Below are positions 29,510 through 62,155 of a DNA stretch of 64,000 bases, piece by piece; the first letter of the stretch is position 1; every line of letters begins with the position of its first letter. The position numbers and the translations under genes were made by a program. The notes under the pieces are model-generated. The model searched no databases. It had not been told where the DNA came from and saw nothing but the letters and a program-made list of their open reading frames with translations. The DNA comes from Opeltia flavorubescens (lineage: Eukaryota > Ascomycota > Lecanoromycetes > Teloschistales > Teloschistaceae), in contig KE546969.1 in the NCBI GenBank assembly GCA_000442125.1, positions 186,001-250,000 on the forward strand, in the 5' to 3' direction.

Positions 29510-32500
29510 ATGGCTTCTTTCGATTATGTACCCCTTTTATATCACCCGTTGAGCATCAGACTGCTCAAGCTCCTGCCCAGTGTTGATTTCAGAAGCACCT
29601 TATGCTGTGAAATTTTCCATGAGAACCTTGACGACGAAGGTACCGTTCCCTATGAAGCATTATCCTACACATGGGGCGACGATGGCGAGACTGTGGATAT
29701 TCCTGTGAGCGGCCGTCCCTTTCCAGTGACGATCAACCTCGCCGCTGCTCTAAGAGCCCTTCGATTCAGCGACAGGCCGAGAAACCTGTGGGTAGACGCA
29801 ATATGTATTAACCAAAGGGACATTGAAGAGCAAGGAAGACAAGTAGGCATCATGTGGAATATCTATCAGACTGCGTATTGTGTTGTGGTTTGGCTTGGTC
29901 CAGAGGATGGAGACAGCTCCATAGCAATGCATAACTTTTCTCGACGAGAAGCACAAATCCGACTTCCACGTCGTCAGGTCATGGATAGAAAGTGGCCGGC
30001 AGAACTTGAAGGCAAGAGATGCAAATGCCATGCGGGAGACTGGTATTCGTATCCTCCAAGACCTGGTGTTCAAAAATTGGCCGAAAGACGCTGGTTCACA
30101 CGGATCTGGGTAGGTCTAGATTCAAACAATATGAGCGCGATTAAGGAGACAGTGCTTATCTTAGTTGTAGGTCCTTCAAGAAGTCGCAGCTGCGAAACGT
30201 GTGGTGGTAATGTGTGGAGACATTGCCGTCGACGGGGACGATTTCTGCAATGAGATGATAATGTCATCGCCATGGAACAGAGTATTCCAAAAGATCCTGC
30301 CCAGAGCGCACCCAGCTTTAGAGCTGATGAAAAGGTCTACATCAGACTCAAGGCTTGAGAAAAGGCTACTCATAGAACTCGTCGAGAGTTTTCGGACTTG
30401 GGAAGCCACGAGAGCTGTAGACAAAATATATGCCTTACTTGGGCTCTCTTCTGATGCCTCGGCTATCCCGGAGCTGCGACCAGATTATACTATATCACCA
30501 AGTGTTTTAGCCCGGAAGCTTGTGAAGTTTGCTTTCCAAAATTCTGTTATTAGCTCACAGAATGCAGATCAGAGCGAGGTTCATTTCGAAATCGACGGCC
30601 TCGTACTCGGGACACTTGGTGGCTCAGAAATGAATGGTGTAATGCTATGGTCAATTGAACCAGAAGAATCAAGCCCTTCTGCTGGTCTGTTTAAACCCGT
30701 GGTATCGTCTTCCGCAAAAGATACAGATCGCGTTGAATGGAACTTCTTGATTGCAGGTGAGAGGCGATTACAAAGAGAAAGCCTCGTTGTCTTGCTACGA
30801 GGTGGCTCTTTACCGACGGTGTTGCGCTTTCATCAAGGCAAATACATTGTGGATATGCTCGCGACACCGGAACCTTTCAAGGATGGTATGTCATTGATGA
30901 TGAAGCATGCGAACTTGCCGCCTCCGAGGCTCCGAGATAGAGGATGGAAAGACGCTGTAGAGTCTCTTTCTGCTCAGCCTGACGGATGGACGAATTTCCA
31001 ACTATCTTGGGATCCATTTCGACCACTCGACTCTTCTGAATACCACAGGTACATACCGACTCCCAACAGCACTGTCACACAATGGGATGCCATATTGGAG
31101 TCATACAAAGATGCTGCTCAAAACGGAGAAGTGGATGATCATGACTGTGGCACTTTCGGAATGCTAATGGGCCAGATAGAGCTTAACAAAGACAAGATCG
31201 AGAAGGGCACCTGGTTGCCTGCAATGACGATCCACAAAGCGGCATATAATGGGTATCTCGGAGCATTGAGAATTCTGCTTGACGCAAATGCGGACATTGA
31301 TAGCCGATACGGCGAATGGTGTTCCACGGCATTACACTTGGCTGCTGAGCAGGGTCATACAGATATCGTGGGATTTTTACTGAAAAGTGGAGCTTCAGTC
31401 GATCTAAAAAATGACCTTGACAAAACTCCACTTTGGCTGGCTGTCTATGAAGGTCATAATCAAATCAGCAAGATGCTTTTAGACGCTGGTGCAAGTCCCA
31501 GTCCTTGGGGGACTGAACATGAACCACTTCTCTTTGCCGCAGTTGGCAACGGCTCTGTTGATATTGTCGCCTCACTCCTCGAAGCTGGAGCAAATGCCGT
31601 AGCCGTCCTACTATTCACAGGAATAACGCCGCTTCATGTGGCAGCAGAAAATGGCCATTCAGCACTAGTCAAAGTCCTACTAGAGGCAGGTGCCCAAGTC
31701 AGTCCACGAACAGTAACTGGTGCCACCCCATTGCATCAGGCAGCAGTGCACGGTCGTACTGAAGTCGCGAGAATCCTCCTTGACGCCGGTGCCGATATTG
31801 ATGCATTAGAAGATGATGGAATGACGCCTCTGGATAACGCGGTATATTGTGGCCAGCTAGACACGATGCGGGTAATCGAGCAGGCCGGTGGACTTCTCAG
31901 CGTCGTAGATATGAGAAGAGATGAGCAAAATGAAATCACCATATGGAAACACGTGGGCGACGAGGACCATATCGACAAAGAGCAATACGACTGCGAAAAG
32001 GTGATTTCTGATTCTGATTACCATTACGATGAAAAAAATAGGTTCTTCGTCAATAGCTTGAGCAGTGGAGCGGGAGCTACTACTAAATATGAAAAATCCG
32101 TTAGAGAAGGAGTCCAGGAAGATAAAGACGACGGTATGAACGAGGAAGACCATCATGATGAAGAACTCAGCAGAGAGGAGGATGTGAACTCGAATGAATT
32201 AGATATGAACAGGATCGAGTTAAACCTCCAGAAAGCATTCTCCGACAAGAAAGATGAAATAAAGAATCTTATGTGGCCGCAAATTAACAAGCTGATGAAC
32301 CAGTCACGAGATACGAGCGGCGATCTCGAGGCGCAAGATGCTGAATTGGACAATGTCGACGAGGAATGTGATGAGCACCACGAAGGCGCTAGGGACGAAG
32401 AGCAGTACATCCGCGGAGAAGAAAATCTCGAAAAAGATGATGCGGCGAAGGTGGATATGTACCGAGAAGGGATTTCTAGCGATGAAGAGTATTCGGAGGA

Positions 32501-32696
32501 AACAGAAGATTTCTCCCATGAAACAATCGACGGATCAGTGAAAATTACCTACCCAGAAGAATGGAACAGCAGCAATATAGACCGTCACAAGAAGAAGCTG
32601 TTTAAGAAGGAGTTTGATCGAATGATACTCGAATTTAAATCCAAATGGCGATTTGAAAGAGACGATATCCCTAAGATAGAAAATCACGAGGAGTAG
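29510..32696 (+). CDS. HET-domain protein with ankyrin repeats and acidic tail
   Basis: Two exons (29510-30109, 30171-32696) give 1041 aa. The start is ATG MASFDYVPLLYHPLSIRLL; the frame is open upstream only from a GTG. The HET domain occupies about 40-230 with VPYEALSYTWGDDGE, RNLWVDAICINQRDIEEQ and, across the intron, RRWFTRIWVLQE, the three blocks typical of heterokaryon-incompatibility proteins. A DKIYALLGL motif follows. About six to seven ankyrin repeats span about 545-770 (TALHLAAEQGHTDIVGFLL, TPLHVAAENGHSALVKVLL, TPLHQAAVHGRTEVARILL). Unusually, the last 270 residues are a charged Glu/Asp-rich tail ending in a basic LYS-rich helix (KKKLFKKEFDRMILEF). HET domains trigger cell death on non-self contact. 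The partner is unknown. Confidence 0.9.
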
Positions 32697-34496: not shown

Positions 34497-35720
34497 TTAT
34501 CTTGCGCCTATAATTAACAACGGCCCAATATGCTTTGGTATATTGAAACCGAATAGGCTCGCAAACCACAATATCGCGTATAAAAACGTCGGACTGAGCA
34601 GCAGCTCCGTGTGGTGTAGAAATGGCAAAGCTTTCAATTTTTCCTTCATTAGCCTTGGTCACCCGCCAACGAGAAGTTATTGGGAGGAAGCTCACCGTTA
34701 TATCCCAGGAAGAAGATGATGGTGTAATATCCGAATGCAACGAGATATAGCGTATTGCCCAGCAATAGGGATATCCTGCTCTGTGTTAGAATTCCCCGTA
34801 TATCATTTTGGTAGCGCGAGGGAAAGGAAAGGAGGATCCGCAAGGGCCGGACTGACCAGTAATCCCTCGATATCAACGGTAGGAGCACAAATTGCAGCAC
34901 ATAGAGGAAAATCCAAACGGGGAAAAAGGCTCGTATCGCAACCTAGTTCGGCCCCAGTCACATTAGCCCAGTCTCCACTACCAGCTGTCTTCCGCTTCCC
35001 TCATCCCCCCAACCTTCTCCTTTATCACCCCCATAACCAAGAACACTCACATCAAAACAATACCCAAACTCCAACGCCTCCCCATCATCCCTTCCCCCCG
35101 TACCAGCCGTAGCATCTCCAAACAATCCTCTCCTTCTCCCACCTCTTAAACCTCTACTTCCCGGCCCTAACAACCTTCCGATGAGAAAATAGGCCGCAGT
35201 CGCAATGAGAAGGGAGAATAGTAGGAAATGTATAAATATGAAGATGAGTGTAAGACGGATTGTGGCGCCGATGGAGGTTGTAGAGGCGATGCCCCAGGCG
35301 AGGCCGGTGAGGAGTTGGAAGGCGGAGAGGAGGTAGGTGAAGGAGGGGTCGGCGAGGTGGTATGTGTTTTTTGTTTCTGTTGGGTAGGATCGTTAGGGGG
35401 TTTGAGATGTGGGAGTGGGAGGGGTGGCGGAGATGAGGAGGGGAGTGTTACGTTTCTGGGGGTGATATATTAGTTGAGTGATTGGGATGAGGGCGGGGAG
35501 GAGGTACGTACATGGTAGTATATCGATCTGAAGACTTTCTTGGGTGCGATGATTAGGTGTGTCATTTCCCAGATTGCCATTTCGAAATCCATCTGGGGGA
35601 ACTTGAAGAGTCTAAATCAAGGCTGATCAGCTACGTGCGCTCCTTTTGGGTTCGTCTCGGAGCACGTAAGAGGGGGTGGGGATCGAGGGTTGTGGCGGAC
35701 CTTTTGAAAAATCGTGGCAT
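34497..35720 (-). CDS. UNC-50/Gmh1 Golgi membrane protein
   Basis: Six exons (35720-35701, 35611-35508, 35376-35051, 34942-34857, 34775-34696, 34630-34497) sum to 249 aa, close to the usual 250-300. The protein starts MPRFFKRLFKFPQMDFEMA and continues IWEMTHLIIAPKKVFRSIYY and NTYHLADPSFTYLLSAFQLL, all typical of the family. Hydrophobic segments follow (LTLIFIFIHFLLFSLLIATA, VWIFLYVLQFVLLPLISRDY, LLGNTLYLVAFGYYTIIFFL), with about five membrane spans. It ends LPFLHHTELLLSP then LLIIGAR. The yeast homologue Gmh1 resides in the Golgi and interacts with the Arf exchange factor Gea1; UNC-50 is needed for receptor trafficking in animals. The basic GRRRGLFGDAT loop (exon 3) is an insertion typical of fungi. 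The 20-bp first exon and six exons in 1.2 kb are notable. Confidence 0.9.
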
Positions 35721-46304: not shown

Positions 46305-48197
46305 TCAAAAATCTACTAACTCCTCACCCATTCCATCTTTTTTCCCTAGCTCGAAGCCTCCTTCCTCCCCCGTCTCATGTACGAACGCCATCGGCTCATC
46401 ATGATCCCTGATATGCCTCCCTGTCGCCAAACTCCCATCATGTGGATGGTGCGAGCTAGGTATCGAGAGCCCGAAGTGCGGGTCATCGACGTCGGCAGTG
46501 GCACGACGGAGCTGGTCTTCGAAGTTGAATTCTTGTTCTTGTTCTGAGGTGTGCGAAGGATGGGACTGGGTAGGTTGATGGTGATGGTGGGGATTTTGCA
46601 TTATCTGGGGGTCGAGCGGGAGATTGTCGTAGGGGGATGAGTGATGATGGTGGAGGGCGGAAATGTCGTGGTGGGGGTGTTGCGGGGGGAGGGAGAGGGT
46701 ATCTTGTATGCTGGAAGGGGGATGAGGGGTTTGGATATCTGTGAAGTCTACGAGGCGTTCGATCATGCTTGCTGGGTCTTGGGGGTGATGGTTTGTGGTG
46801 CTGGTGTTACTATTGTTGTCTCCTCTTCTAGAACGAGATTGTAATGTCCCTGTTGCAGATGGCTGCTGGTTGTCGTTGTAGGAGCGGGAAGAGGGTGCCT
46901 GTCTTATACTTTCTTTGCAGTCGGGACAGTTTTTGATGACGAGGCTAACGGTCTCCTTGATACGTACCCAGTGGTATTTTTCTGCGATTGTGGCAGTGGT
47001 TTTGTTGATACCTCCGTGCTGGGACGCATGGACTTGGCGTGCGATTTCGTATTGTCGCTGAGGGTCGGATACGACTTCTTTGTCCTTTAGCATCAGTCTC
47101 TCTCCACCGTCCGACCCATTTTCCGCAGGAAGTAGTTTGTAATGTGTTGCTGCGGAACGTAACCGCGACTTCTCCGCGCGGTCTGCACCATTGGGATATT
47201 TGCCATGCTTAAGGTAGAAATGTATTTTGTCAAATCGTTCTTCGCTAACGAAGTCTTCACCTTCAGGACCAAGATCTCGGCCGTAAATGATGGCGTCAAC
47301 CAGTTCATTTGGGTAGGAGCGGAGGTTACCGCATGCTTTGATACGGCCAACGCGCTTGAAGCCGAGGGCATCCCAGATGCGGCAAGAAGCTACATTGGTC
47401 TCATAGACGAGATTGAATACAGAGTATGTGTAGCCCTGTAGGCAGATAATGAGTGAAAGTGGTTATGAGGTCCATCACATGAAAACTTACCAATTTAGGA
47501 GCCCATTCCAGGTACCCTATCTCACATGTTTCAGTAGGCTGCTACATCAAGCATTATCTTGATGACTAACCTTCGCCCATCAGTCTCCCGACCCCTCGAT
47601 TCCTAGCCGCTTCTGTGACCAGAAAGCCGCCGTTACATACATGGCTGCTGCGACCTGTTGCCAATGATAAGAATCCTATTCTCCTTCTATCGACGCTGAG
47701 CTTACACATACCTGGATAATTAGGCTTGACGTAGAAGCTGCCAAGACACACTTGTCCCCAATCCACGCCGCCATTCTCTAGATTTCGGACATCGTCCAGA
47801 CTCTGTACTTCTCCAAGAATCATGATAGCAGCGAAGTTTTGAAACCAGTAAGTGCCGAATGTAGTTAGTGGCATAGGGGAAATCATAGGATATGTATCGC
47901 CCTTTTCTATCTCAAGGTTCAGTTGGGAGCAAAGGTAGTTGAGTAAAGTGTGTGGAACATCATTGGGGTTAGAGAACGGGATGAGAGATGCGATGGTAAC
48001 CCTGTCTCGTAAAGTGACTTGGCGAGGTGTAATGCTCGACGGGATCTGGGGGTCGGACGGTGTAGGATAAGGAGGCGCTCCGCTCGTGCGGTAGATGATT
48101 GGAGCTGTTGGATCATCGAGCTGATAGAATCCATTAGCTGGAATTTTTTCTGAAGGAGCAAAGGAAATGCGGAATGCCCAAGTACCATAGCAGGCAT
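46305..48197 (-). CDS. SPT10: SPT10-like GNAT acetyltransferase with H2C2 zinc finger
   Basis: Five exons (48197-48186, 48120-47712, 47654-47571, 47516-47491, 47435-46305) give 553 aa. A 12-bp first exon (MPAM) is joined through a 65-bp intron with a CTAAT branch-like site to LDDPTAPIIYRTSG. The GNAT domain (about 60-250) shows YWFQNFAAIMILGEVQSLDD, CLGSFYVKPNYPG, CNGGFLVTEAARNRGVGRLM (acetyl-CoA loop), EWAPKLGYTYSVFNLVYETN and SCRIWDALGFKRVGRI. The H2C2 zinc finger follows: QYEIARQVHASQHGGINKTT then WVRIKETVSLVIKNCPDC. The GNAT plus integrase-type H2C2 finger is the diagnostic arrangement of Spt10, which in yeast binds histone-gene upstream sequences and drives histone transcription. The C-terminal 220 residues are disordered and rich in His and Pro. 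An SPT10 gene is expected in ascomycetes. Confidence 0.9.
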
Positions 48198-50330
48198 ACT
48201 TGATGCTGGCCCCTGGCTCTGAATTCCGATGCGTGAGACGGTGGTCGAGAGATAGATGACTAAGCTGTGTTATCGGGCAAGCGGATACACCTTCCTACCG
48301 GAGCTTTCCGGCCCTTCGACCGCTCACCGAAATGGCCGGTGGACTTGCCAAGCTCGTCGTCGTAATAAGGAATAGGGAATAGGGGTCAATACCAGTACAG
48401 AAAGTCAACACCTGCGCGCAGATTCTGTCATGGACTTGTTCGGCTCGAGAAGTGATGAAAAGTGCAGGAAGTTCTGAGTCCTACGGAAGCATTTCGTAGG
48501 ATGACGCTAGACAGAGGCTGAGTTAGCCATTTATGGCTTAGTCAGGCACGTGCCAATTTTCGATACAGATACTGTTTGAGTTCAAGTGGAAGCCTGTTGG
48601 TGTGTTGGTGTTGCAGAATTCGTAGGCTGCCGATGGTCAATGAGCCTTATGGTCTTGACGTATATTGATTTCCATACATAGCCAGAGGATTTTTGAGTTC
48701 AAGGAAAGTGTCCACTAGGCGACACCCAGAAAGCCTTGTGTAACTTTAGCTTCGGCCTTGTCAACGCCCTCAAGCCTCGATCACAACCAGATATCGCAAG
48801 AGAGCTTGATCACTCTGATTGCTGAGTATGTTGAGGCTCGGTGCAATGAGTTGGCTGTAGACAAAAGCACCGTCCAGACAGAGGATAGGGATCTTTGGGG
48901 AAGCTGAGGCTCTCGTGCCTTTGGGAATTATCTAGGAAGACTAGCATAGAACGTTAGAAAGCCTTAAAACAGTTTGCCACAACTCTTGAGAGCAGTGCAA
49001 TCGGCCTCGTCCGCGCATTACTCATTCCTTGATACTTTAGCCTTCACGTGTCAGAGTAGCCACGACAGCCTGGACAGAGGAACAGGGCGGATTGCAAGTT
49101 TTCGCAGATATCCATTCAATGAGACCGGCACTTGCTGTCGGCTGAATGGACGATGACTGAGCAAGGCTCCGAGAATGAGCGAACAAACACGCCCTCCGCC
49201 CTCGACCGGAATGTTTGGGTGTTACCGGTGTACCAGGAGGGCGACTTGGCTTGCAATTCAGAGTAGCAGATAAACGAATCAATTCGATGACAGAGCGAGT
49301 GCAGGGCAAATGAGAGCTAGAAAAGAACGTAGCTGTGGAATACGGACAGGAGCAACATGAGAACATGCACGCCATCTTTGCAGCAAACTTACCACAGTGT
49401 GCAGACTCCACTGCATTGTGTTGTACTCATACGGCCGGTACTGCAGCAAGTGATGCAATAATTCTTGCCAATATGGAGCATCTCATGCTTGCTGTCGTAT
49501 ATGAAATGCATGCGTTCTCAAAAAGAAAGCGGTTCTCGTTTAAAGGAGGCAAGAGGAAATGCAAGTTACCGTCTCTTGTGACAAACATCGTCGACAGCCT
49601 CGGTGTGAAGAGATTCAGGAAGGAAACATTTCTAAAGCAGTCAATTGCAGCGCATTGCTAGGCTACTAGAGTGAACAGGAAAATGCTTGTCCCGAAGTAA
49701 ATTGGGATTCTGTTGGTATCCGAAGTGGGTGTGGATAATGTTGAAGCTCAATGCAATGCTTAGTTCTGTCGCAAACAATCACGAATGGCACTTGACTCGC
49801 ATCAACGAAAATCCTCAACGAAAACAGGCTGAGTAGTACAAGTAGAAGGGCGAATAGACCAGTAAATAGTCTTGTTGACGGTGTCGCCACTAAAGCGAAA
49901 GCTCTAGGCGGCTAAATCATCATACCCCTGTGACCTCTTTCAAGCCTCGATCTACCAACGACGTCGCCCTTGACAGCCCCTGCAGCACCACCGAATAGGG
50001 GAAGGCCCACAGCAATGGTCTCCACTGCGCCTGCCTAAAACGACAGATTGACTGTTGCACCGTTAGCCAGATGACTGGAGTCTCGAGGCTCTGTCATGTA
50101 CCCCATCCCCGTCGTCGGCCCGCCTTCCATCCCACTGCCGCAAAAAGTGATGCAGGTCACGGTTGGTATGACTCGTTTGACACGTCTTTACCTATTCAAA
50201 TACAAATAGCCTGGGGGTGCTCTTCCAATTTTTGGGATCAACATCTGCGTTACCGGTCAACATCCCCGAAAGTGACCACACGTGTGCGATGACCTTGAAG
50301 CGTATTATTGCAATTTCATAGTCTGTCGCT
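48198..50330. other. Long intergenic stretch between divergent genes
   Basis: 2.1 kb with no supported gene. ORFs at 49037-49411 (minus, Cys/Ser-rich), 49335-49661 (plus) and 49666-49890 (minus, GTG start with a hydrophobic start) lack family resemblance or splice support. It should hold the SPT10 and NLR promoters, and could hold a decayed gene. Confidence 0.5.
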
Positions 50331-53300
50331 ATGGTGAGTCAAATGCAGCCCCTACATTGGGATGGCTCAAGATCTGACGAAAGCAGAGCAATTCGAGCGG
50401 CCAGCGCATTCCTGTCAACAGATATGGCTTGACCGAAGTCTCCTCTCCTACCGATTCCACACCGAATGTCGATGTCGTCTTCGTCCATGGCTTGAATGGA
50501 GACCCTCACAACACCTGGACAAGCGAGACCTCAAAAGTCTTCTGGCCTGCTCAAATTCTACCTCCTGTTCTTATCGATGAGAAGCCACGCGTGCTGGTGT
50601 ACGGTTACGACGCCGATGTTACAAGCTTTACCGACGGTGCATCCAAGGACAAGATCCACAACCATGCCGAGCAATTGATCGCCGCGCTGCAGTCCAATAG
50701 GCGGATTCGGAAAGCCACTGAACGCCCCATAGTATGGATCGCCCATAGCTTAGGAGGTCTAGTGGTGAAAAGAGCGTTGATATACAGTTCAGAGATCAGA
50801 GGCGTCAAGACGGAACATCTGCGGTCCGTCTTCGTATCGACATATGGCATTCTATTCCTGGGAACACCTCATCATGGTTCGGACATTGCTCAGTGGGGTA
50901 ATCGGCTGGAATGGATATGCTCTGTCATGCTACCTAAGAAAATTGTGGACACTCAGCCCCAACTTGTCGATGCGCTGAAGACAAACAATGAGACCTTGCA
51001 AGTTATCGACCGCCAATTTATCCAAATCATGAGTCGTTTCCACATCTACTTCTTCCATGAAGGAAAACCCACCAATCTCAAGGGTACTCTGAGATTTGTA
51101 TGTATGGCCCATACCCTGTGCAATCGCACTCACGCTAATTGTACCTGTAGATTGTCGATGAGACGTCAGCATCGCCTACAGTGCAAGACGTCGAACGGGC
51201 CGTCATTCAAGCCGATCACTCCCACATGTGCAAATTCGAGAACGACAACGCTCCAGGGTTTGACCTTGTCGTCGAGGGTATCCAACGCTACGCTGAACAG
51301 GCTCCTGGAACGATCACGCAGCGTTGGAATGCGGAGAAGAAGGAGCGCTCAACTATCATGCAAGCTGAGGCAGCTGAATTATATTCAAGCACGTACAGTT
51401 CATCACCGAACCCTCCGCCGTTCCTCTCTAACATCATCATAGAAGCCACACCCCAAACCGATTCGTCTAGTACATTTGAGGGCTCTTCATTAGGTAAGGA
51501 GCAGCAAGCTCTTCCAGCGCCTGACAGCGAAGCAAGATTTGATGATCAATACACCGTGGAGGAAGTCACCAACGAGGAAATGATGAGATGAAGGATCTAT
51601 AATTCTTGGATTTTGCGGCGTTGGTGGAGAGTAGCGATTTTGGCATTTTGTGTTTTCTTGACATGGCGGATTTTGCTGATTTGGGTCTTTGTATGTAGGT
51701 AATTCATCGATCAGTCTTACTGGCAGCAATTCCAAACCTGATCTCAAAGACGCTGCAACGACAACATCTGATCCGCAACCATCAAAGCCGTCTGAACCGT
51801 ATTTCATTGTTCCTCCCGGGTTTCGTCCAAACACTTTTTTCGTAGGAATGGAAAAGTAGGCACCAAGCATTCAAGATGATTCTCAACATTGTACTAACAT
51901 GAGGGAAAGAGAGCTACAAGACCTTGATCGCAGGCTTTTCGATAAGCGAAGACATGACGGGACGGCTTGTGTCCTCGTACACGGACAACCTGGTTCCGGA
52001 AAGTCGCACCTGGCCCGGCAATATGTCAATAAAAATCGGAAGAAGTTTAGCGGAGGAGTGTTCTGGATTGTTTCACACCTGAAGGAAGAAAGGTAAGGTC
52101 CCCTAATTCAACTGTGTTGGCAGTGATTCTGATAAGTGGATTTTCTAGAGATCAAGCTTTCGAATCCATCTACCAAAAGGCGGTTGCTCGAGAATCGCCC
52201 GACGCAGGTACCAAGCTCAACAAACGTGGACAATCTTTCGTTGCGTCGGTAAAAGCATGGTTTGAGTCAAGGCAGGAATGGCTTATCGTCTTCGACGGAG
52301 TAACAATTGAGACCGATGAGGATGTGACAGAACTAGCCAAGTTCGTACCGGATAGCCGGAACAGCAGGTGAAATGACACTCGACTCCTCTTCTTCTAACG
52401 ACGAAGATCTAACAGGAAGATAGTCTCATCTACGTCTCCAGGCAACGCAATCTAGAATCCAAGCAACGTCTTTTACGGCCACATGCCATTCGAGTGCCGG
52501 TGCTGAAAGTAGATGACGCAAGGAAGTTGCTTCTCAAGGAGCTTCATATCAGGAAACCAACAGAAGATCAAATCAAGCATGCGTCCAAACTCGTGAAACA
52601 GGTGGACTGCTTGCCTCTGGCGATCACGGCAATAAGTCATCGCATTGCGGACACTCACGAGCCCTTGATGCGATACTCCATGAAGTCCTTTTCCAATAAT
52701 CCAAAGCTTGAAGGAACCTACAATCAAATACTGGACGACATGCAAAGGCTGGATCACATGGAAGCTTGGAATCTTATCAATGTCTTAGCTTTCTTTGGTC
52801 AACATGTACCAGTTGAGATGATACACCTCGGTATCAAAGATTTCCAGGACGTCCCAATCAAATCTGGCGAGGGCATGGGGAAGCCAGATCTCAATGGTAC
52901 TTTAGGAATCTTGATAAGACATGGTTAGTATTGCAAGTTGTACAGTTGAATGATCAGCTGATCAGCCTACAGCACTGCTTGAACGAAACGAGCCAGATTC
53001 CGACACGTCCTCAAGTCGAGACAGCCTTGTTGAGCCTGAACCTATCGACATGCTTAAGATGTATGTCATCTTGGGCCATGTTAATTTCCCTTAGCTGACA
53101 ACGGAAACAGTCACAGCGTCGTCCAGACATTTTGTCGTGACAGTCTAAACAGCAGAGAGATGCTCCCCGAGTGGCTCCAGCATGCGACGCAACTTCTCCA
53201 ACGCTCATATCACAATGCAGATTCCAAGATTCAAGACAAGGAGCAACTGGCTCGTGTGAGCGATTACAGATACTACCTTGTGAGTCCAGAATATTGACCT

Positions 53301-55371
53301 TTCCAAGCCCTGAGTATCTCCTGCTAACCCATCCTAGGTCCATTGCCGACGATTGTATGAGCATGCCCAAAATTACGAGAGCAAAAAACAAAGTCTTGCA
53401 CCCATCCGTGCCGACCTCGAGCCGCTACTCGAGACCATCGAGAATCAGATCCGCCTACTGGAGCCAGGGTCATCCCAAGAAAGCGTAAATAAGACCTACC
53501 AAGTATCTATCTTTGACAGAACAACTAGTAGCTCGGATTCGGTACCCTCTGCTCCCTCCGTCAATGAAGCTCGGACGCCTTCCCATAGACCGAGCCCTCT
53601 CCCACTGGCACACGAGACGCTTTGGGGCACTGATGCCCGTAAACCATCATTGGAGTCCCCTGCGAGCATCGGTAGCGCCAGAACACCCCATGTAGTAGGG
53701 CATAGTCCATATCAAGGATTCTATGACGATTTTGGTTATGAGAGCGATCGAGAGGCGATTCGTTATACATCGCAACCAATGCGGAAGAACCTATCTGAAG
53801 CCACGGCAATGCCTCATGCCAGTGGAGGGGAGAATCGGGAAGGTGGATGGCAGGTGGTGCAGACCACTAGACGTCAAAGAAAACCTCGTATTGGTCGCGA
53901 TCTCGGCTCGTTTCGACCAACACCTGCAAGAGCAACTCGTGCTGAGGTCGATAGGAGATCAGCGACTGGTTTTGTTTCTCGAAGCTCGGATCGTGCTACG
54001 AACAGGAGCTCGGAAGCCAAGGCAGCTNTATCCGAGGTGCATTCAAGAAGTCCTCCTTCGTCACGTGGAAGTCTGACGGATAATGTTACGTCCTTTTGGC
54101 AACGAGGACCTCTAGCTAATACTACTAACTCACAGCGAACGTGGGCTAACGTAGCGGCAGCACAGAATCATCAATCTCGAGTCCAGCCGCTCGCTCCAAC
54201 CGCAGTACCCACGATTGCTCCCACAAGCTCCTCACCAGCAAGGCCATCAAGTCGCCATGCAAATCCGTTCTCATCGCCCCTCGCCTCAGAGATCCATCAG
54301 GGGGAATCCGACCACAGGGACAGTTTAGCGAACAGTGTTCAGCTTTCGATGAGATCTGGCCACGAGGTCAGTCCTCCAACGCGGGCAACGCCATCGTACT
54401 ACACCACACCACCGACTGGTTATCACCCAAGTCCCTCCCAGCCGCGGTACATAACAAACGAGAACTACCACAATCCACCTCCAATCCTTGGGCCTAATCC
54501 TGCCAGCCTCCCGTATGATACCATCGACGACAACATCTCCATTTCCTCAAAGCGGCGCCTCCCCGACGAATTCCGCAGCGAGGTTCAGCCAATGCCTTAT
54601 CCTACAACCAGCCCCTCTCATCCCAACCCACAACATTCTCCGAATAATACTTCTCCCTATCCCCCCTATGAAGCTTATTACCCCATGCCATCAGGCTACA
54701 CTTCCCAGCCCATGAGCCGGGACAATAGCCACCTATCCCGTGGATCGATTGCTGAAACCGAACCTTTGCATTTCCAACAACATGGCGGCAGCAGCAGGAA
54801 CTTTTCCGTCGAACCCCCTTCTCCACGCGATAGGCTTCCTGACGGACGTCCGCTGAGGAAATCCCCGAGATCGGATAATGCGTTTCCGCTGTCGTCGTCG
54901 GGTGATAAACCGTCGCCGCAGTATGAGCATTTAAGTCGGTCGCTCCCTGGGATTGGGGGATGGAGCTATCAGCGAGGAGACGATTCTTATTCTCATAATC
55001 CTATATCGAGGTCTTCCTCAGGTCCGGGTGTGGCTATTGAAGATCATTATGGGCATGGGTTGGGGATTGTGCCGTTTGATGGCCATTTGAGGTTTGGGGA
55101 GCATAATCCTATTAGTGTGGAAGAGGCGAGGATGAGGACGCTGGAGTGGGAGGAGAGACTTAAGAGGGAGGGGGAGGGTGGGTGGGGTAGGGGGTGGGAT
55201 GTTAGGGGGGAGAGGGGAAGGGAAGGGGTTGTGGAGAGGGGGAGAGAGCGAGGGGGAACTTTTCAGGATGATGGGAATGCGTTGAGGGCGTATCCGGAGA
55301 TCAACCTTATTCCTACGAGGAGTAATCCTGAGGCTATGAGAGGGATGGTTGGGGAGGTGGAGAGGCGGTGA
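50331..55371 (+). CDS. NLR-like protein: SERAC1/SesB-type hydrolase, NB-ARC-like NTPase, disordered tail
   Basis: A multi-exon gene. The hydrolase domain (about 50430-51090) has VDVVFVHGLNGDPHNTW, VLVYGYDADVTSFTDG, the nucleophile elbow WIAHSLGGLVVKRAL and ILFLGTPHHGSDIA, i.e. an alpha/beta hydrolase of the SERAC1/DUF676 group used as an effector (SesB) by fungal NLRs. After a linker and FRPNTFFVGMEK, the NTPase has Walker A GQPGSGKS, FSGGVFWIVSH, WLIVFDGV (Walker B), SLIYVSRQRN and CLPLAITAISHRI (the GLPLA-like motif of NB-ARC). A winged-helix-like part follows to MLKIHSVVQTFCRDSL. From about 53460 to the end the protein is a roughly 600-residue Ser/Pro-rich disordered tail with no TPR, WD or ankyrin repeats. 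The N-terminus is inferred: an ATG-only exon at 50331-50333 before GTGAGT, then a phase-0 acceptor at 50392-50410. An N lies at 54028. Confidence 0.78.
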
Positions 55372-56261
55372 CGGGGTAAAGGGTTGGGGGATGGTTTTTA
55401 GCGATTTTTTTCGGTTCATCGTTTTGCGATTTACTTTATCTTTTGGGATTGATCACAGATGGTTTGGTCATGTATGCATAGCGTTCTTTGAGGGAAGGCA
55501 AAAGTTTCTTACTGGAGGTATGGGTATGGGACTTGAGGGCTTCTGTTAAATTAGAAATTTTTCAGGGAAGAGGGGGGGTAGGTTCATTGCGTCGTTTAGT
55601 ATTTTGTAGAGTGGGAAGCATGCATGCGTGTGAGTGGTGTGTACGATAGAATAGGAAGAAGGGATTTAGTGGAAAATTTCGATTTGAGTGACTTTTTTAC
55701 TACTTGATGTCTGTATCTTGGGACGTAATTTACTAGTGTGAAGAAATTATGAATTGGATTCTGTGGGATGGGTAAGGTATGTTGGTTGGTAGAACTGTAG
55801 GATAGATTTTGAGATGATTACGGAGACATCTTTTCTCCCTTCATACCTCCCCTGAAGAATGAAAAGGTTATTGGGGAAAGATTAAGGCCACGGCAAATCC
55901 ATTAGACGATTTGAATGTTTGCAGCGGAGTGTACTTTTGCCGCGTGGTAAACGATGTTAATAGATAAAATAAGCGATATGTTGATATCGAGTATTGTAGG
56001 CAAATGTTGGACACTTATACATAGGGGTAGGGATATAGTGTATACCGCAATGACGGATCTTGAACAGCCACAGTGGAATTAAAAAGCACTGTGGGAAGGC
56101 GTCTCATTCGATGATAATGTTGAGATGAGTGTATCACTGACACGCTTTTCCCACCGGCATAGCCTGTATACAAATCTAAATCCGGGGTCTCGAACGCCCC
56201 TTTCCAGCCCCCTTCCTTAAATCCCGATGAACATCTCAGTGCAATCAGTACATCCCTTCAA
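55372..56261. other. 3' flank and spacer, no gene
   Basis: About 0.9 kb between the NLR stop codon and the first pyrimidine-rich tract of the tandem array. It is A/T-rich with no family-like ORF. Confidence 0.5.
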
Positions 56262-56410
56262 CCCCCATCCCCCCTAATTATCCCCTTCAAGAAATTCCTC
56301 ACTCCACCCCCCTTCTCACAAGATCCCAAAACCCCCATCAGCACCCCCCTAATCAAATCCTCCATCTCCATCCCCCCTTTCACACCCTTCCATCCACCTC
56401 CTATAAAAAA
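56262..56410 (+). repeat. Pyrimidine-rich tract of unit 1
   Basis: C/T-rich plus-strand DNA with C runs immediately downstream (minus sense) of the unit-1 ORF. Similar tracts recur in units 2 to 4. Confidence 0.6.
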
Positions 56411-56416
56411 TAATCA

Positions 56417-56686
56417 TCATCCTTCCCTCCACCCCCTCTCCCACATCTTCCCCCTAACTTTCTTCCATTGCCCATCCTCGATGATATAAGCCGGTGGATC
56501 AAATCTCATCCATTCTCTGTATGCGAGCCCAACTCTCCACTTTCCGAGAATCATCGCTGGCGTAGGTCCCGATGAGTTGAAAATGGGAGGTGGAGAAGAG
56601 GCGAGGGAGAAATCGAGGAAGAGGTAGCAGAAAAGAAGGATTTGGAGGAGAATGAAGATGGTGGTTTTGAGAGAGGGAGTATGCAT
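56417..56686 (-). CDS. Short putative secreted/membrane peptide, unit 1 (89 aa)
   Basis: The ORF runs from MHTPSLKTTIFILLQILLFC (a signal-peptide or signal-anchor-like start, hydrophobic about residues 8-28) to a stop at 56417, 89 aa. The mature part is rich in Trp, Arg and Lys (GKWRVGLAYREWMRFDPPAY, DGQWKKVRGKMWERGWREG). The frame is open for 45 more codons upstream, but that extension is Thr/Ser/Pro-rich and less convincing. It belongs to the tandem array. No known family was recognised; it might be a small secreted protein or not expressed at all. Confidence 0.35.
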   Translation of the reverse strand: MHTPSLKTTIFILLQILLFCYLFLDFSLASSPPPIFNSSGPTPAMILGKWRVGLAYREWMRFDPPAYIIEDGQWKKVRGKMWERGWREG

Positions 56687-56979
56687 TATTGTTTTAGGGA
56701 GTGGTTTTTGTAAATTTTGAGTTGTGGTGAAGGAAGTTGGCGAGAGAAGGGTTGTGGTGGTGGTGATGGGGGTTGAGATGGATTTGTTTGATGTTGGCTT
56801 TGGGAATGAGATGGTGTTCATATGAGAGATGAGCTTGGTATGTCCCGTCTAGAGGAGAGAGCAACATTTATTGAGAACATAAAATAATCATTGCGTATGC
56901 GCTTGAATCCCATATCTTCTATAAGAGATGAAGAGATGAAAAAGGTATAGAGTCTAGAAGGAAGGGATTAAAACCAAGT

Positions 56980-56999
56980 GAGCAAGATTGAGCACGATT
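56980..56999 (+). repeat. Repeated 20-bp element, copy 1
   Basis: GAGCAAGATTGAGCACGATT, identical to copy 2 at 57998-58017, 1018 bp away. It lies 294-313 bp upstream (minus sense) of the unit-1 ORF start. Confidence 0.85.
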
Positions 57000-57282
57000 A
57001 GTAGCGGATGCCAAATTCCCCCCTTTCGTAAAAAAAAGACGAAGGAAAAACAAAATGAACAAAAGAGAAGAAAAAGCCGAACAAAAACAGGACCGGCGAG
57101 ATTCACTACCGCAACTACGATATGCAATCTCAAGATATTCATTATCAAATGTTTAAATTGATAGCACGGTAGCAATGGCGAAATGAATTCTGCCGTGTTT
57201 CTACAAGACCGCGACTAGTTCCCTCTGCGATAAACCCCCAATTTACATCGAGCAAGTCGCCGATCTCCATCCTACGCTCATT

Positions 57283-57425
57283 CAACCATATATACCTCCC
57301 ACGTACCTATTCTAACCCGCTGAACCACCTCCTTTTACCTTTCCTCGCCTCCTCTTTTACTCCTTCACCTCCATATTTGTCCTATATTCCCCCTTTCCCC
57401 CATTTCCCCCCCCCCCTCTCTGACA
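57283..57425 (+). repeat. Pyrimidine-rich tract of unit 2
   Basis: C/T-rich plus-strand DNA including a long C run (about 57409-57420) just downstream of the unit-2 ORF in minus sense. Confidence 0.6.
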
Positions 57426-57504
57426 TCTATGACATGAGCTGGGGAATCAATCTTCACCCATATTTGACATAAAGACATGACCGTATCGCGCCCTATCTTT
57501 ACTC

Positions 57505-57681
57505 CTACCAATCCTCATCATTCATAAGCTCTAGAAACAGATCCGTCGCCAGAAAAAACGCTATCTCTTTGCCCACCTCTTCTGAAAACAAACCGGCGGT
57601 ATATAAGGATTCGCGGAAGATGTAGTCGGAAAGAGAGATGTATATGAAGGCGAAGAGGATGTTGCGGAGGGGAGGCCACAT
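57505..57681 (-). CDS. Short putative membrane peptide, unit 2 (58 aa)
   Basis: The ORF starts MWPPLRNILFAFIYISLSDY and stops at 57505 after 58 aa; it is shorter than a usual gene-calling threshold. The N-terminal 20 residues are hydrophobic; the C-terminus is acidic (FLELMNDEDW). It sits in the same position within its unit as the unit-1 and unit-4 ORFs, about 0.2 kb downstream of a TATA-like run near 57908-57918. No known family recognised. The hydrophobic-then-charged design resembles unit 1 only loosely. Confidence 0.35.
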   Translation of the reverse strand: MWPPLRNILFAFIYISLSDYIFRESLYTAGLFSEEVGKEIAFFLATDLFLELMNDEDW

Positions 57682-57997
57682 CGTTATTGGATTTCTAGGT
57701 ATTGATTTTAGGAAAATGTGAGGTGTATGAATGGTGATGAGATATGGGTGGCGAAGATACTGTTGACGATGGTGGTGAATGATGACTTTGGAGGGTATAA
57801 TTCAAGGAGATGGAGAGTTTTGCTGTGGTCCTGATGTGGTGAAGAAGAAAGGAGAGGAAGGAAAAACCAGAGCAAAAGTCTTTAAGAAGATATGTATGTT
57901 TAACTGAAAAATATATATGCGCATGATTCTCGTATGCTTTTTTCACAAGGATATAGAAAGGAGAAAAAGTAGATCAGGAAAGGGGAGTTCATCAAAC

Positions 57998-58017
57998 GAG
58001 CAAGATTGAGCACGATT
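57998..58017 (+). repeat. Repeated 20-bp element, copy 2
   Basis: Identical to 56980-56999. It lies 317-336 bp upstream (minus sense) of the unit-2 ORF start. The next 100 bp in both copies share imperfect words (ACCGGC..G, TGC.AA.TC.CCC). Confidence 0.85.
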
Positions 58018-58327
58018 CACAGTACAGTGCAAAATCTCCCAAAAAGGGGCAAGAAGAAGAAAAGGGAAGTTTTTAACGACACAGAGTATACAAACCGGCC
58101 CGGCAAAATCTGCTACTTTAACAAAACTCTGCATGTATTTTTTAAGTATCCAGTTCAGTATACAAGCAGGCTGTTTCGTTATCATCGATGTTCTTCATAA
58201 TCAGGAAATATCATATACCAAAAAAATATATACAAATCACCAAAGATGAATTCTGTACAACCTCCTCGCCATTATATTAGCTTCCTCCAGGTTGAACACG
58301 CGTTATCATATACCCACACCAGCCGTT

Positions 58328-58560
58328 CTACATTCTCTCTTTGCCCCCTCCCCCTCCCCTCATCCCTCTCCCTCCCTCACTTTCCTTCTCTCACTAACCG
58401 CCCCCGCATTAAAAACTAATCCATCCACATCCTAATCCCCCTCCCCTACCATTCCCTCCCACCCCCTTCCCCCCCTCTTCTTTTCTACCCCCTCCCCAGC
58501 CCTTCCCCCATTCCCCCTCCTTACCCGTCTCCCCTTCCCCCTGCCCGTCTCCCCCTCATC
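58328..58560 (+). repeat. Pyrimidine-rich tract of unit 3
   Basis: About 230 bp of C/T-rich plus-strand DNA (many CCCCTCCC words). It corresponds in position to tracts of units 1, 2 and 4. Confidence 0.6.
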
Positions 58561-58645
58561 TTATGTATTCAACACCAATCCATCCCATCTAACCCCCCCA
58601 CTCCAGCAACAACGCACGGAAAAGTCTCAGCAGGCGCTCTTATCG

Positions 58646-58726
58646 CTAGAATAATAGAGATGTAAATAGCAGCCAGGGTAACGAGGAAATTTTGATTGTG
58701 GGGGATGTATACTGCGTTGATTGCAT
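58646..58726 (-). pseudogene. Unit 3 short ORF, possibly decayed
   Basis: A 26-codon ORF from MQSTQYTSPTIKISS ends in a hydrophobic LPWLLFTSLLF at 58646. Another minus frame stays open across 58580-58815, with an IYISIILAI hydrophobic stretch, but lacks an ATG. At this array position a peptide ORF of 60-120 codons is expected, so this unit may be shortened or degenerate. An unseen splice could also explain it. Confidence 0.25.
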
Positions 58727-59104
58727 TGTTTGGTATAGGATAGGGGTCAAGGTTGAAGGGGTTGTGTTGAGGATGTAAGAATAGGAGGGTGGCTGATGTT
58801 GATTATGATTTGGGGGATGAGGAGAGGAAGTTAAAATATTTGTAATAGTAATAGTATAAGAAGCGTCAAGGAGATCTGAAGTGATTGCAGCGGTTTCAAA
58901 AATAGTCTATATAGTAAAAAGGAAAGAATAAGAAAAAGATAATACGTAGAAGCCTCGAATGTATATATCCCTCCTTTCAACATAAGGGAGTAAGTAAGCG
59001 AGTACAGCAGCACAATATGCGGCTATTTACTATAAATCGGTCTGAATTTTTTTGGCAGGACGGATATGCAATTTTGACCTTGAAATATTAAGAGGAAATC
59101 TACC

Positions 59105-59235
59105 ACCCCCAGACCATCCTTCCCTCTCCCCCTTCCCTCCCCTCATCAGCTCCTTCCTTTTCCTTCCCTCTCCCCCTCTTTCACCCCCCTATATTCCCCC
59201 CATACTCTCCTATTCCCCCCTTTACCCTCTATTCC
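59105..59235 (+). repeat. Pyrimidine-rich tract of unit 4
   Basis: C/T-rich plus-strand DNA just downstream (minus sense) of the unit-4 ORF. Confidence 0.6.
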
Positions 59236-59236
59236 C

Positions 59237-59605
59237 CTACCGGAACCACAGTGGATAAAACCCAATCCACAATGGTAAAATACCTGCCCTCATGACCCCC
59301 TGTCCTACGTCCACCTTAACAATGCCCTTGGTCCCTAAAACCTCCCCCTCCATCTCTACGACCTCCCCTTTTACCCTTACCCCTACCCCTACCTCACCCC
59401 CGAAACCCGTAGACCCCATCGCGCTCGCCAGTGGCTGAACCTTCGAAAAGGACTGTATCTGTGGAAGCGTCTGTATCTGTGGTTGCAAGTCCCCAAACGG
59501 AAATACCTGCGGGAGCGGCCGGGCGGATACTGGTGTCGAAAGGCCAAGGACAATAATCAGGACGAGGGTGAGGGTGAATAGAGGGTCGGTGAAGTGGAGA
59601 TGCAT
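59237..59605 (-). CDS. Putative secreted protein, unit 4 (122 aa)
   Basis: The ORF starts MHLHFTDPLFTLTLVLIIVL with a good signal-peptide character; cleavage is plausible after VSA or SAR, before RPLPQVFPFGDLQ. The mature part is Gln/Pro-rich, then Gly/Val-rich (GEVGVGVRVKGEVVEMEGEV), ending RAGILPLWIGFYPLWFR. No known domain recognised; no cysteine is seen. It is the longest ORF of the tandem array. A short TA-rich run near 59809-59822 is 204-217 bp upstream and could act as TATA box. Confidence 0.4.
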   Translation of the reverse strand: MHLHFTDPLFTLTLVLIIVLGLSTPVSARPLPQVFPFGDLQPQIQTLPQIQSFSKVQPLASAMGSTGFGGEVGVGVRVKGEVVEMEGEVLGTKGIVKVDVGQGVMRAGILPLWIGFYPLWFR

Positions 59606-60461
59606 GGTCTTTTGGCGGATGTGGGTATCGATATATAGATTTCCAGATGTTTTGAAGTAGAGGAGGTGAGGTACGGCGGAGAAACGTGGCTGGTGATGAT
59701 GATGGTGATGGTCTTGTGGGTTGAGGAAATGGATTTTGCAGTGGGTATTGTGTGTCTGTGTTGTAGAAAGGAGAATAAAGAATTAGGTATGAGTATCGTT
59801 GACGAATATTTTATATATATTTTTGAAAGTTATTTGCGAAGACGAATTATTGCGCAGGATTTCCATGTATTCTAAAGAAAGGGGAGAAGTCTACAGCTGG
59901 ACAGGAGGAAGAGCACGTTTTCGGTGTCAAGTAAAAATGAGCACATTTAATGCAAGTCCAATATCACACTCTACCAATTGGACAAGTAGGGCCAAGGATG
60001 GGACAAGCTTTAAAGTAATGCTACCATTCTTTCAGAGACTCAATACATACGATGACAAAAACCAAAACCAAAACTATGTAGTAACACATGTCGCTCGAAG
60101 TATAGGCCGTAAAATGCATTCCTTGTGCTTGCAAATATATGATGGGTATCTCATGAACAGAAATGATACGCCGCTGAACGCCATAATGTATGAAGTAACG
60201 TGATCGTCTTCGCTTGAAATGATGCCAAGAATGAGCGCGGTTATATGGTAACGGACGAGGTTGAACAATCCTTTTGATGAGTGACATAGCAGTTGTGGGC
60301 GGAACGGCTGCTTGTTGGCATACCTTCCACATCTGAGGTGGTTGAAATGCATGATTTCGACTCGACTGGCATCGAGAGCCTCTATCGGCGAATAAGTTGC
60401 TTTGATCGCATAACGACGAACGCCATAGGGGAATCTTTCGTCGATTCGTCCGAAATCGTTT
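59606..60461. other. Upstream part of unit 4 and 3' flank of DUF6594 gene
   Basis: The first 350 bp hold the TATA-like run and GAGCACATTT words resembling the repeated 20-bp element. From about 60020 an open minus frame extends into the DUF6594 gene but has no usable ATG start at its beginning, so no gene is called. Confidence 0.4.
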
Positions 60462-62155
60462 CTAGTCGACAACAATTGCTAGCATGAGCATGACACCCGC
60501 GTATCTACGATGCAAGTCAGCATTGAGATCCTTGTTTCCCATAAATTCAAGTGAAGATCAAGAACATACACTCCAAGCCCCTTCTTCTTCTCCTTCAGCA
60601 GCTGCAAATCCAGCAACGAGGTCGGCGAAACCATACACATCAATGCCAATCCAATCACTGCACTCATCACCAATCGAGCGAAAAATTGGGGGACGAATTT
60701 GAAGACGATGATGGTCGTGAGAATGGTAAGCGAAACCGTAACGGGGGAATATTTGAGGCTCGTGGGGCTCGACTGCTGTCGGGTCTGAGCCACTGTGACC
60801 AGGTCGTTATCGTGATTCAAAAATAGAGCTTCGGGTTTGGCGATTGGATTATGCTTCATGATCCATCTGCGATAGGCTTTGACGTCTGATCTCGAAGAAG
60901 GGGAGAGGGTTTGTGTGAGATTGGAGTATGATGAAAGAGTCCGATCTGATGAAGCTCTTATTAGCTTGACAATAGGGTTCCCTGATCAATCAATTCACTC
61001 ACTGTAAGTATCGACCTTGCTCGCACATCGGTCCAAAAGATTTTTCCTATGCCATTGCAATTGACTTGGTGCCTTGGCTTCTTCCCGCCTTGAAGCTGGG
61101 CAGCGACTCCTACCCATGCATTGCTCCTCTCGTACAATCGAAGCGTCCAATTGCTCCAATTCAGCCTCGATTTCTGCAATTTCATCTTGTAGGTACAGTA
61201 GAATGCGATTGTTGAGCGTTTCAAACTTGCGATAGACAGGCTTAAGAACAGCATCCTCCTGTGATGAGATCCTTGAGGCTAGCTCCGAATAACCATGCTT
61301 CATCGTAGACGACTCCTTTGCTGGTTGCTGTTTACGGCTCCGGGGTAGTTGAGGCGATAATTCAGGCGGTGTTGCAGATAGCTGGTAGGAGGTATTCTCG
61401 AGAAGCTTTGGGGGCTCTCGGGTCCTTCGTGCATAGTAAGCCTCCGGGGTATCGCTGGGAACTGTGCTCAGCTGAGGCCAAGCATCTGTCGCGGCATTGT
61501 TGTTCTGAACCGCAAAAGGCTCGTAGGAGACATTCAAGCCATGGTCTTCCGGGATTGACGGTTCGTGTGTGGAGGCCCGACGTATACTTGGATACTTGTG
61601 CTGTTGAACAGGGGAATCTCCATCACCACTGCTTGAACCCATCGAAATACCAGAGTCCGAGTGAAAGCTACCAGACTGGTTGAAACCGCCGTGCCACGTT
61701 TGTCGCTTTGACTGCTGAACGGCATTGACTTCTAAATCGCTGTAATGTGATGACGGGTGGTGAGCCGAGACCGGGCTTGAGGCTGCGGTATCCGGTCCAG
61801 TACTCTCCAAGGCATCATCGTCCTCATGTTCATCGTCCGTATGGTGATGGTCGTCACCCTCCTCCGAATTATCCATGAATGCAAATACGTCAATGTCCCT
61901 TTTGATCTTCTTCTTGGTGGTTGTCTCCTCGGTTGGACTGCTCCTCGGGGTTATTTTGGAAACAGGAGTAGCTCCTTGACGTCTCGAGGGTCTCAATTGG
62001 GCATTCGAAGCATTCGAGGCATTGGAAGCGCCGGAAGACTTCTTGACTTCGATGGGACTTGTAGATTGCATCACGGCAGGAGCTAGACTTGTTGGCTTTT
62101 GAGAGATGGACGAGTGACGTGAAGTCCGACGAGGACGATCACTGAGCCAGGGCAT
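60462..62155 (-). CDS. DUF6594 membrane protein
   Basis: Three exons (62155-61003, 60945-60570, 60504-60462) give 523 aa. The N-terminal 280 residues are disordered with Ser/Asp/His runs. The DUF6594 domain then starts at HGYSELASRISSQEDAVLKP and RKFETLNNRILLYLQDEIAE, with a coiled coil (IEAELEQLDASIVREE). The C-terminus has RRWIMKHNPIAKPEALFLNH and two to three membrane segments (VSLTILTTIIVFKFVPQFF, LVMSAVIGLALMCMVSPT, VMLMLAIVVD). This is the usual fungal DUF6594 layout: an N-terminal helical part and a C-terminal membrane bundle. Function unknown; several members occur per ascomycete genome. Start MPWLSDRPRRTSRH is the first ATG of the frame. Confidence 0.88.

Follow-up and report, generated by a model that had tools for sequence, protein, structure and literature searches.

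The 64-kb window, by which we mean the whole stretch of DNA analysed here, looks like chromosomal DNA of a filamentous ascomycete and carries on its minus strand four short units, A to D, with ATG codons at 56686, 57681, 58726 and 59605, respectively. We interpret these units as probably an old tandem gene family in decay, whose small products are probably secreted; in this reading A and D plausibly still work, B is frame-broken and C is a doubtful relic. The units lie between an ORF at 53338-55371 and a DUF6594 gene at 60995-62155. The ATG positions reproduce the ORF-start spacings (995, 1045 and 879 bp) given by an earlier, sequence-only reading of the same DNA; its proposal of an old local duplication of a small-peptide gene holds for A and B, is likely to extend to D and is not borne out for C. 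No tRNA genes were found in the 64-kb window.

We picture short transcription units on the minus strand of a filamentous-ascomycete chromosome, together making up an old tandem array. The upstream region of each unit would drive its own transcription, and would be followed by a C-rich leader, by sequence predicted to encode a small protein that begins with a signal peptide and, last, by a G-rich tail. Alongside the A/B duplication, which is established by alignment, D would be a likely third copy and C possibly a decayed copy or an unrelated segment; A and D could plausibly still be functional, B would probably be broken, and C would be either a relic or unrelated. The products would most likely be short secreted proteins that act either at the surface of the cell or on its neighbours, a role that we infer solely from the signal-peptide-like starts.

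Units A and B are tandem duplicates

Searching positions 55000-61500 against the whole window aligned 57126-56608 of unit A with 58133-57606 of unit B (both on the minus strand, and spanning the upstream region, leader and ORF start) at 57% identity over 553 columns, with an E-value of 1.65e-10. This self-comparison shows that the homology extends well past the 20-bp word already known to be shared by the two units. The local alignment score of 41 compares with averages of 17.1 and 16.0 for two sets of 200 shuffles that preserve local composition, none of which scored above 27; for pairwise alignments of the segments upstream and downstream of the ATG, two sets of 400 such shuffles were used. 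Downstream of the ATG, the A-B score was reached by 1 and 0 of 400 shuffles, and for A-B, B-D and A-D alike the downstream signal is weaker than the upstream one. Units A and B are therefore true tandem duplicates, homologous copies in the same orientation; D is likely another such copy, whereas C was not shown to be one.

An upstream element is kept in A and B and partly in D

The identical 20-bp word noted in the sequence-only reading, GAGCAAGATTGAGCACGATT, was recovered at 56980-56999 and 57998-58017, 1018 bp apart; read on the minus strand, its outer edge lies 313 nt before the ATG in A and 336 nt before it in B. The word occurs at no third place in the window when up to 3 mismatches are allowed (0.01 expected). 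A diverged version that matches at 14 of 20 bases is present upstream of D (59929-59948, minus strand), where the outer edge is 343 nt from the ATG, and a match of this quality was reached by 12 of 2000 local shuffles; the window as a whole holds 5 matches of 14/20 or 15/20, the D element among them. The word's inner 12 bases, when up to 2 mismatches are tolerated, occur 11 times in the window against 6.3 expected, and 5 of 100 shuffles gave as many. The full word was also found in 2 bacterial contigs of the genome_contigs collection (257 billion bases), where about 0.5 occurrences are expected, and we took these to be chance. Retention of the element in A and B, and in part in D, suggests that the units may share regulation. 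A search of the literature for conserved promoters of tandem small secreted paralogs found nothing. As to the TATA-like region that had been described upstream of the units, B, C and D each have a strict TATA[AT] within 400 nt, but A does not.

Unit D is a likely third copy

The upstream region is the basis on which unit D is likely to be a third copy of the A/B family. Upstream of the ATG, the B-D alignment stands at z-scores of 4.5 and 5.8, a level that no shuffle attained in either set of 400, and the A-D alignment was reached by 1 and 4 of 400. Downstream of the ATG, the corresponding counts are 1 and 4 for B-D and 14 and 9 for A-D. As proteins, the N-termini of A and D match marginally (34 of 1000 shuffles as good), and a match between B and D is absent (587 of 1000). 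When the A C-terminus is compared with six-frame pieces of the window, unit D is not represented in the top 12 matches, and G-rich tracts elsewhere in the window match the tails as well as A-D or B-D do.

These observations bear on a competing explanation, which we judge unlikely though worth weighing, that only A and B are duplicates. In this view C and D would be short neighbouring genes of other origin, or else non-genic DNA, and would look alike because a C-rich start and a G-rich end are common to many genes of this fungus. It draws weight from the unaligned N-termini of B and D, from the occurrence of 14/20 matches to the upstream element elsewhere in the window, from the A-D local alignment score, which was reached by 8 and 3 of 200 shuffles, and from local alignments of C to A, B and D that lie at shuffle level (94 to 135 of 200 shuffles reach the scores). 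The strength of the B-D upstream alignment, the position of the D element at a matching distance from its ATG and the near-regular spacing of the units speak against it.

For unit C, membership of the family is doubtful, as the unit has no credible ORF and its similarity to the others is weak. Its frame (58646-58726, minus strand) encodes 26 aa; the length alone was matched by 687, the hydropathy by 285, and both together by 206 of 2000 shuffles. Upstream of the ATG, scores were reached by 118 and 70 (A-C), 10 and 4 (B-C) and 2 and 6 (C-D) of 400 shuffles, and downstream by 192 and 214, 42 and 59, and 106 and 141, respectively.

The reading frames of A and D exceed local composition

Frames with a hydrophobic start stand above what local composition yields in A and D, marginally so in B, and not in C. 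ORF A (56417-56686, minus strand) encodes 89 aa with a signal-peptide-like start and a C-terminal motif, WMRFDPPAYIIED; the 122-aa product of ORF D (59237-59605, minus strand) would begin with a strongly hydrophobic stretch that resembles a signal peptide. When length and hydropathy were considered jointly, neither was equalled in 2000 shuffles, and the 58-aa ORF B (57505-57681, minus strand), which also has a hydrophobic start, was equalled in 4. Length alone was reached by 8 (A), 11 (D) and 129 (B) of 2000 shuffles, and so is beyond chance for A and D only; start hydropathy, the sole measure by which signal peptides were judged, was reached by 0, 1 and 34, respectively. Translation and secretion of the products are predicted on these grounds.

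Comparison of A with B at the protein level revealed similarity at both ends. The N-terminal 30 aa align with a score that 2 of 1000 shuffles equal. The counterpart of the A C-terminus lies in a downstream piece of B (57368-57514, minus strand) that carries the motif WVKIDSPAHVID in another frame; the score of 50, for a piece that was picked after being seen, compares with a shuffle mean of 21.9 (sd 5.0) and was reached by 0 of 2000 shuffles. Among 2863 six-frame pieces of the window, this B piece is the top match to the A C-terminus (score 41, next 37), and the same match by blastp, with an E-value of 0.065 to 0.13, is modest by itself. The signal-peptide segment of A, compared with the whole window, places the B piece fourth, with a score of 35 behind three other pieces at 36. 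Since the conserved C-terminus sits in another frame, B is probably a broken copy. Under a loose consensus, intron candidates number 0 in A, 2 in B, 1 in C and 0 in D, and occur elsewhere at 1.55 per kb; both candidates in B end at 57439 and would excise over half of the motif shared with A, so that splicing, though possible, is not supported.

The units might instead be non-coding, representing duplicated promoters of long non-coding RNAs or dead gene remnants whose frames were left by stop-poor, pyrimidine-rich leaders. We regard this explanation as improbable. The similarity of A and B detected by DNA search does lie mainly in the upstream region and leader, the frames of B and C are short or broken, and codon scores are not coding-like in B and D (reached by 382 and 499 of 500 shuffles, respectively, and by 5 of 500 for A, in a genome whose codon bias is too weak for such scores to settle the matter). 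Against this stand the frames of A and D, which exceed local composition, and the C-terminal protein similarity between A and B, in which differences number 10, 4 and 11 at codon positions 1, 2 and 3, fewest at position 2; the N-terminal block, with 13, 10 and 9, has no codon-position signal.

Nothing in Pfam scored above cutoff for ORFs A, B or D, the weak matches for A being Gaa1 (E 0.089) and RMF (E 0.12). A PDB sequence search with A and D gave one weak match each: 8frf_A (RBL7_C2_3; E 0.0076, residues 20-48) and 3l1n_A (cell wall antigen; E 0.34). Comparison of ORF A, the only query used, with viral_contigs gave 13 pattern stretches, none confirmed as relatives. Alignment-free structure models are low in confidence and of too little quality to compare by fold, with pLDDT values of 57.9 for D and 68.6 for A.

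The array lacks an overall signature of repeat-induced point mutation

Several diverged tandem copies in a filamentous fungus could also be what is left of a transposable element after repeat-induced point mutation (RIP), a reading that we disfavour as very improbable. The TA/AT ratio is locally raised, reaching 0.90 in the kilobase that begins at 58000 and 0.85 in the one that begins at 59000, and among the kilobases that begin at 56000 to 59000 TA/AT rises to as much as 0.90 and (CA+TG)/(AC+GT) falls to as little as 1.10. Over the whole array, however, TA/AT is 0.74 and (CA+TG)/(AC+GT) is 1.28, near the window values of 0.64 and 1.31, so that the raised TA/AT and lowered (CA+TG)/(AC+GT) expected of RIP are not seen in the array as a whole. 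The differences between A and B comprise 62 transitions and 114 transversions, A, B and D have no Pfam match above cutoff, and when each unit was compared with the rest of the window in 234 tile comparisons, the single top tile inspected per unit was in all four cases a strongly G- or C-rich tract.

The array resembles known small secreted protein genes

Tandemly duplicated small secreted protein (SSP) genes are a known kind in filamentous ascomycetes. The array resembles them in its short frames with signal-peptide-like starts and no recognised domain, and in its local tandem duplication, divergence and one broken copy. Unlike SSP genes, ORFs A, B and D are almost cysteine-free, and it is the upstream region, more than the protein, that reveals kinship within the array. 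As a gene family the array is real but of an ordinary kind, and much of its repeating pattern is a base-composition trend that nearby genes have too. The A/B pair, with its upstream element kept and its protein changing fast, offers a small example of the birth and decay of short secreted-protein genes.

The shared unit order partly follows a general skew trend

All four units are C-biased at the 5' end and G-biased at the 3' end of the coding strand, such that GC skew rises along the direction of minus-strand transcription, a point in favour of reading them as minus-strand genes. The G-rich 3' tracts, which correspond to pyrimidine tracts on the plus strand, lie on the minus strand at 56254-56454 in A (two G-quadruplex motif loci, one within ORF A), 57389-57416 in B (one locus), 58344-58555 in C (three loci) and 59122-59417 in D (three loci, the last within ORF D). 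Of the 11 minus-strand G-quadruplex motif loci in the window, 9 fall within these tracts.

The common order of leader, ORF and pyrimidine tract had been taken as a sign of kinship among the four units. That order is indeed seen, but it is partly an effect of base composition, and C was not established as one of the copies. All 17 hand-picked gene models of the window have a skew that rises from 5' to 3', changing from negative to positive in 14; among all 34 listed ORFs of at least 200 aa, an unselected set, it rises in 27 and not in 7, with a change from negative to positive in 17. Random intervals on random strands gave rising skew in at most 15 of 17 across 2000 draws. Because the trend is this widespread, unit order by itself does not demonstrate kinship, and a C-rich leader with a G-rich tail is weak evidence of duplication; the same prevalence favours the view that A and B are the only duplicates. 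More generally, a repeated leader, ORF and pyrimidine-tract order in fungal DNA may largely reflect this ordinary skew trend and is no proof of duplication alone.

McLean and Tirosh (2011; PMC3315797) described GC skews of opposite sign at the two ends, 5' and 3', of fungal genes, and Fujimori et al. (2005; PMC555766) an excess of C close to the start in fungi. The former account matches the array in having a coding strand with a C-rich start and a G-rich end, reaching promoter and 3' UTR, and covers unicellular fungi, whereas the array looks to be that of a filamentous ascomycete; the latter, in the part drawn on here, likewise has a C-rich start of the coding strand that reaches into the promoter, treats 5' ends only and includes filamentous species. 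In the array the trend is extreme: the change in skew is greater in A (1.56), C (1.41) and D (1.37) than in any of the 17 hand-picked models (largest 1.24), and B, at 1.14, surpasses 16 of the 17, the intervals used for units and models differing slightly.

It is conceivable, though we consider it very unlikely, that the G-rich tails are structural terminators that insulate packed tandem short genes from read-through, and that the upstream element drives a co-regulated and undescribed kind of secreted-protein family; a literature search linking skew in filamentous fungi to R-loops and G-quadruplexes found nothing related.

Two units of the array are clear copies and a third is a likely one

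The sequence-only reading had interpreted 56262-60000 as an old local duplication of a small-peptide gene family; its ORF-start spacings lead to ATGs at 56686, 57681, 58726 and 59605, all on the minus strand, which define four units of about 1 kb (A, B, C and D). The 20-bp word it described in two units is indeed exact at 56980 (A) and 57998 (B), and no further copy with three or fewer mismatches occurs elsewhere in the window. Blastn self-comparison aligns A with B at 57% over 553 columns (E 1.65e-10); another alignment, with 494 ungapped columns, has 318 identities, 62 transitions and 114 transversions. Because the leaders (C-rich unit starts) and tails (G-rich 3' ends) are strongly biased, we used shuffles preserving local composition, which reached at most 27 (means 17.1 and 16.0, two sets of 200) against an A-B local score of 41. 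Anchored on the ATGs, the A-B comparison gives z of 7.6 and 8.0 for the 480 nt upstream, and 3.1 and 3.4 for the 480 nt downstream. This analysis rests almost wholly on the 64-kb window itself.

Shuffles equalled or exceeded the A-D local score of 26 in 8 and 3 of 200 cases, and the B-D score of 30, from an alignment within the pyrimidine tract, in 3 and 1 of 200; local alignments of A-C, B-C and C-D did not rise above composition-preserving shuffles. Against 1-kb tiles elsewhere in the window (234 comparisons per unit), best scores were 32 for A and 29 for both C and D, roughly equal to A-D and B-D, and all three alignments pair tails with tracts of 57 to 64% G. Since G-rich tracts elsewhere match the tails about as well, tail similarity carries little weight. 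In mirror image to the array tails, an extreme G-rich tract at 55101-55300 (+) lies at the 3' end of ORF 53338-55371; it contains a plus-strand G-quadruplex motif and scores 29 with the C and D tails.

Upstream (480 nt), B-D gives z of 4.5 and 5.8 (0 of 400 shuffles in both sets) and A-D 2.9 and 2.4 (1 and 4 of 400), with B-C at 2.2 and 2.5, C-D at 2.6 and 2.1, and A-C at 0.5 and 1.0. Downstream values are 2.7 and 2.6 for B-D, 1.9 and 2.2 for A-D, and -0.1 to 1.3 for pairs with C. Among 1800 random 480-nt window stretches, a control without composition matching, none scored as high as the upstream A-B, A-D or B-D comparisons, and 1 to 20 scored as high as pairs with C. Unit D also carries a 14/20 version of the word 343 nt upstream of its ATG (12 of 2000 shuffles as good); the corresponding distances are 313 nt for A and 336 nt for B. 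A four-way alignment places the three copies in register, and the best version in C is 11/20 (744 of 2000). As the window holds five matches of 14 or 15 of 20, the D copy included, the weight of that copy comes from its position. The array is real but was partly overstated: two copies are clear, one is likely and one, C, is doubtful.

Leader and pyrimidine tract point to transcription more than to duplication

All four units share a change in composition: the coding strand is C-rich around the start (GC skew A -0.77, B -0.59, C -0.61, D -0.59) and G-rich at the end (0.79, 0.55, 0.80, 0.78). Skew likewise rises 5' to 3' in 17/17 gene models hand-picked from long ORFs of the window, in 14 from negative to positive (random intervals: at most 15/17 rising in 2000 draws). 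It rises in 27 of 34 unselected ORFs, comprising all of at least 200 aa with exon pieces and overlapping ORFs included; 17 pass from negative to positive and 7 show no rise. This trend is known from the literature: McLean and Tirosh 2011 (PMC3315797) describe 5' C-bias and 3' G-bias in almost all unicellular fungi, with skews reaching into promoters and 3' UTRs, and for Aspergillus, Fusarium, Magnaporthe and Neurospora, Fujimori et al. 2005 (PMC555766) describe an excess of C upstream of the translation start; the array units have the C-rich start of both papers and the G-rich end of the first. This trend, together with the rise in window genes, indicates that the GT-rich leader and pyrimidine tract are more plausibly marks of minus-strand transcription than of duplication. 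The skew changes of the array units (1.14 to 1.56) are extreme among window genes; only one of the 17 models, a short gene at 34961-35392 (-), comes near (1.24), the next being 0.90. The array holds 9 of the window's 11 minus-strand G-quadruplex motif loci and none of its 3 plus-strand loci.

The ancestor of A and B may have been protein-coding

Frames from the ATGs span 89 (A), 58 (B), 26 (C) and 122 (D) aa, and their length and N-terminal hydropathy were jointly matched by 0, 4, 206 and 0 of 2000 shuffles, respectively. Compared over their first 30 residues, A and B score 25 versus -3.4 (sd 8.3; 2 of 1000 shuffles as good, compared with 34 for A/D and 587 for B/D); when the A signal-peptide segment is compared with the whole window, the B piece ranks fourth at 35, behind three at 36. 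The C-terminal piece of A, with the motif WMRFDPPAYIIED, matches a piece with WVKIDSPAHVID that lies in another frame of B. None of 2000 shuffles reached this match, and across its 26 codons the two differ at 10 first, 4 second and 11 third positions. Among 2863 six-frame pieces of the window this B piece is the top match of the A C-terminus, scoring 41 against 37 for the runner-up (blastp E values 0.065 to 0.13), and it sits where a duplicate of that C-terminus is expected. These results suggest that the common ancestor was protein-coding and that the frame was later lost in B. The end of D (LWIGFYPLWF) looks similar by eye; we do not count it as a motif copy because D is absent from the 12 best matches of the A C-terminus in the whole-window comparison.

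Pfam returned no fitting family for the predicted proteins of A, B and D, PDB sequence matches were weak, and structure models built without relatives were poor. The signal-peptide-like starts, the shortness of the frames and the birth and decay of copies in tandem lead us to infer that the predicted products would be small secreted proteins. The array is ordinary in kind.

Genomic setting

The window has a G+C content of about 48.5%, and a Pfam scan of 17 chosen proteins found genes of filamentous-ascomycete type: HET with ankyrin repeats, an AAA ATPase with a fungal lid domain, a Sec7 and PH protein, and DUF6594. Overlapping ORFs at 29435-32696 (+) encode the HET domain, then the ankyrin repeats. 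ORF 46305-47462 (-) has integrase-type H2C2 zinc-finger matches, and the adjoining ORF, within 46305-48294 (-), appears acetyltransferase-like by eye, without Pfam matches; we take the pair to be reminiscent of the arrangement in yeast Spt10. To the left of the array, at 50378-52096 (+), an alpha/beta-hydrolase (DUF676) region is followed by an ORF (51899-52096) with a P-loop-like motif by eye, and the two are perhaps one NLR-like fungal gene.
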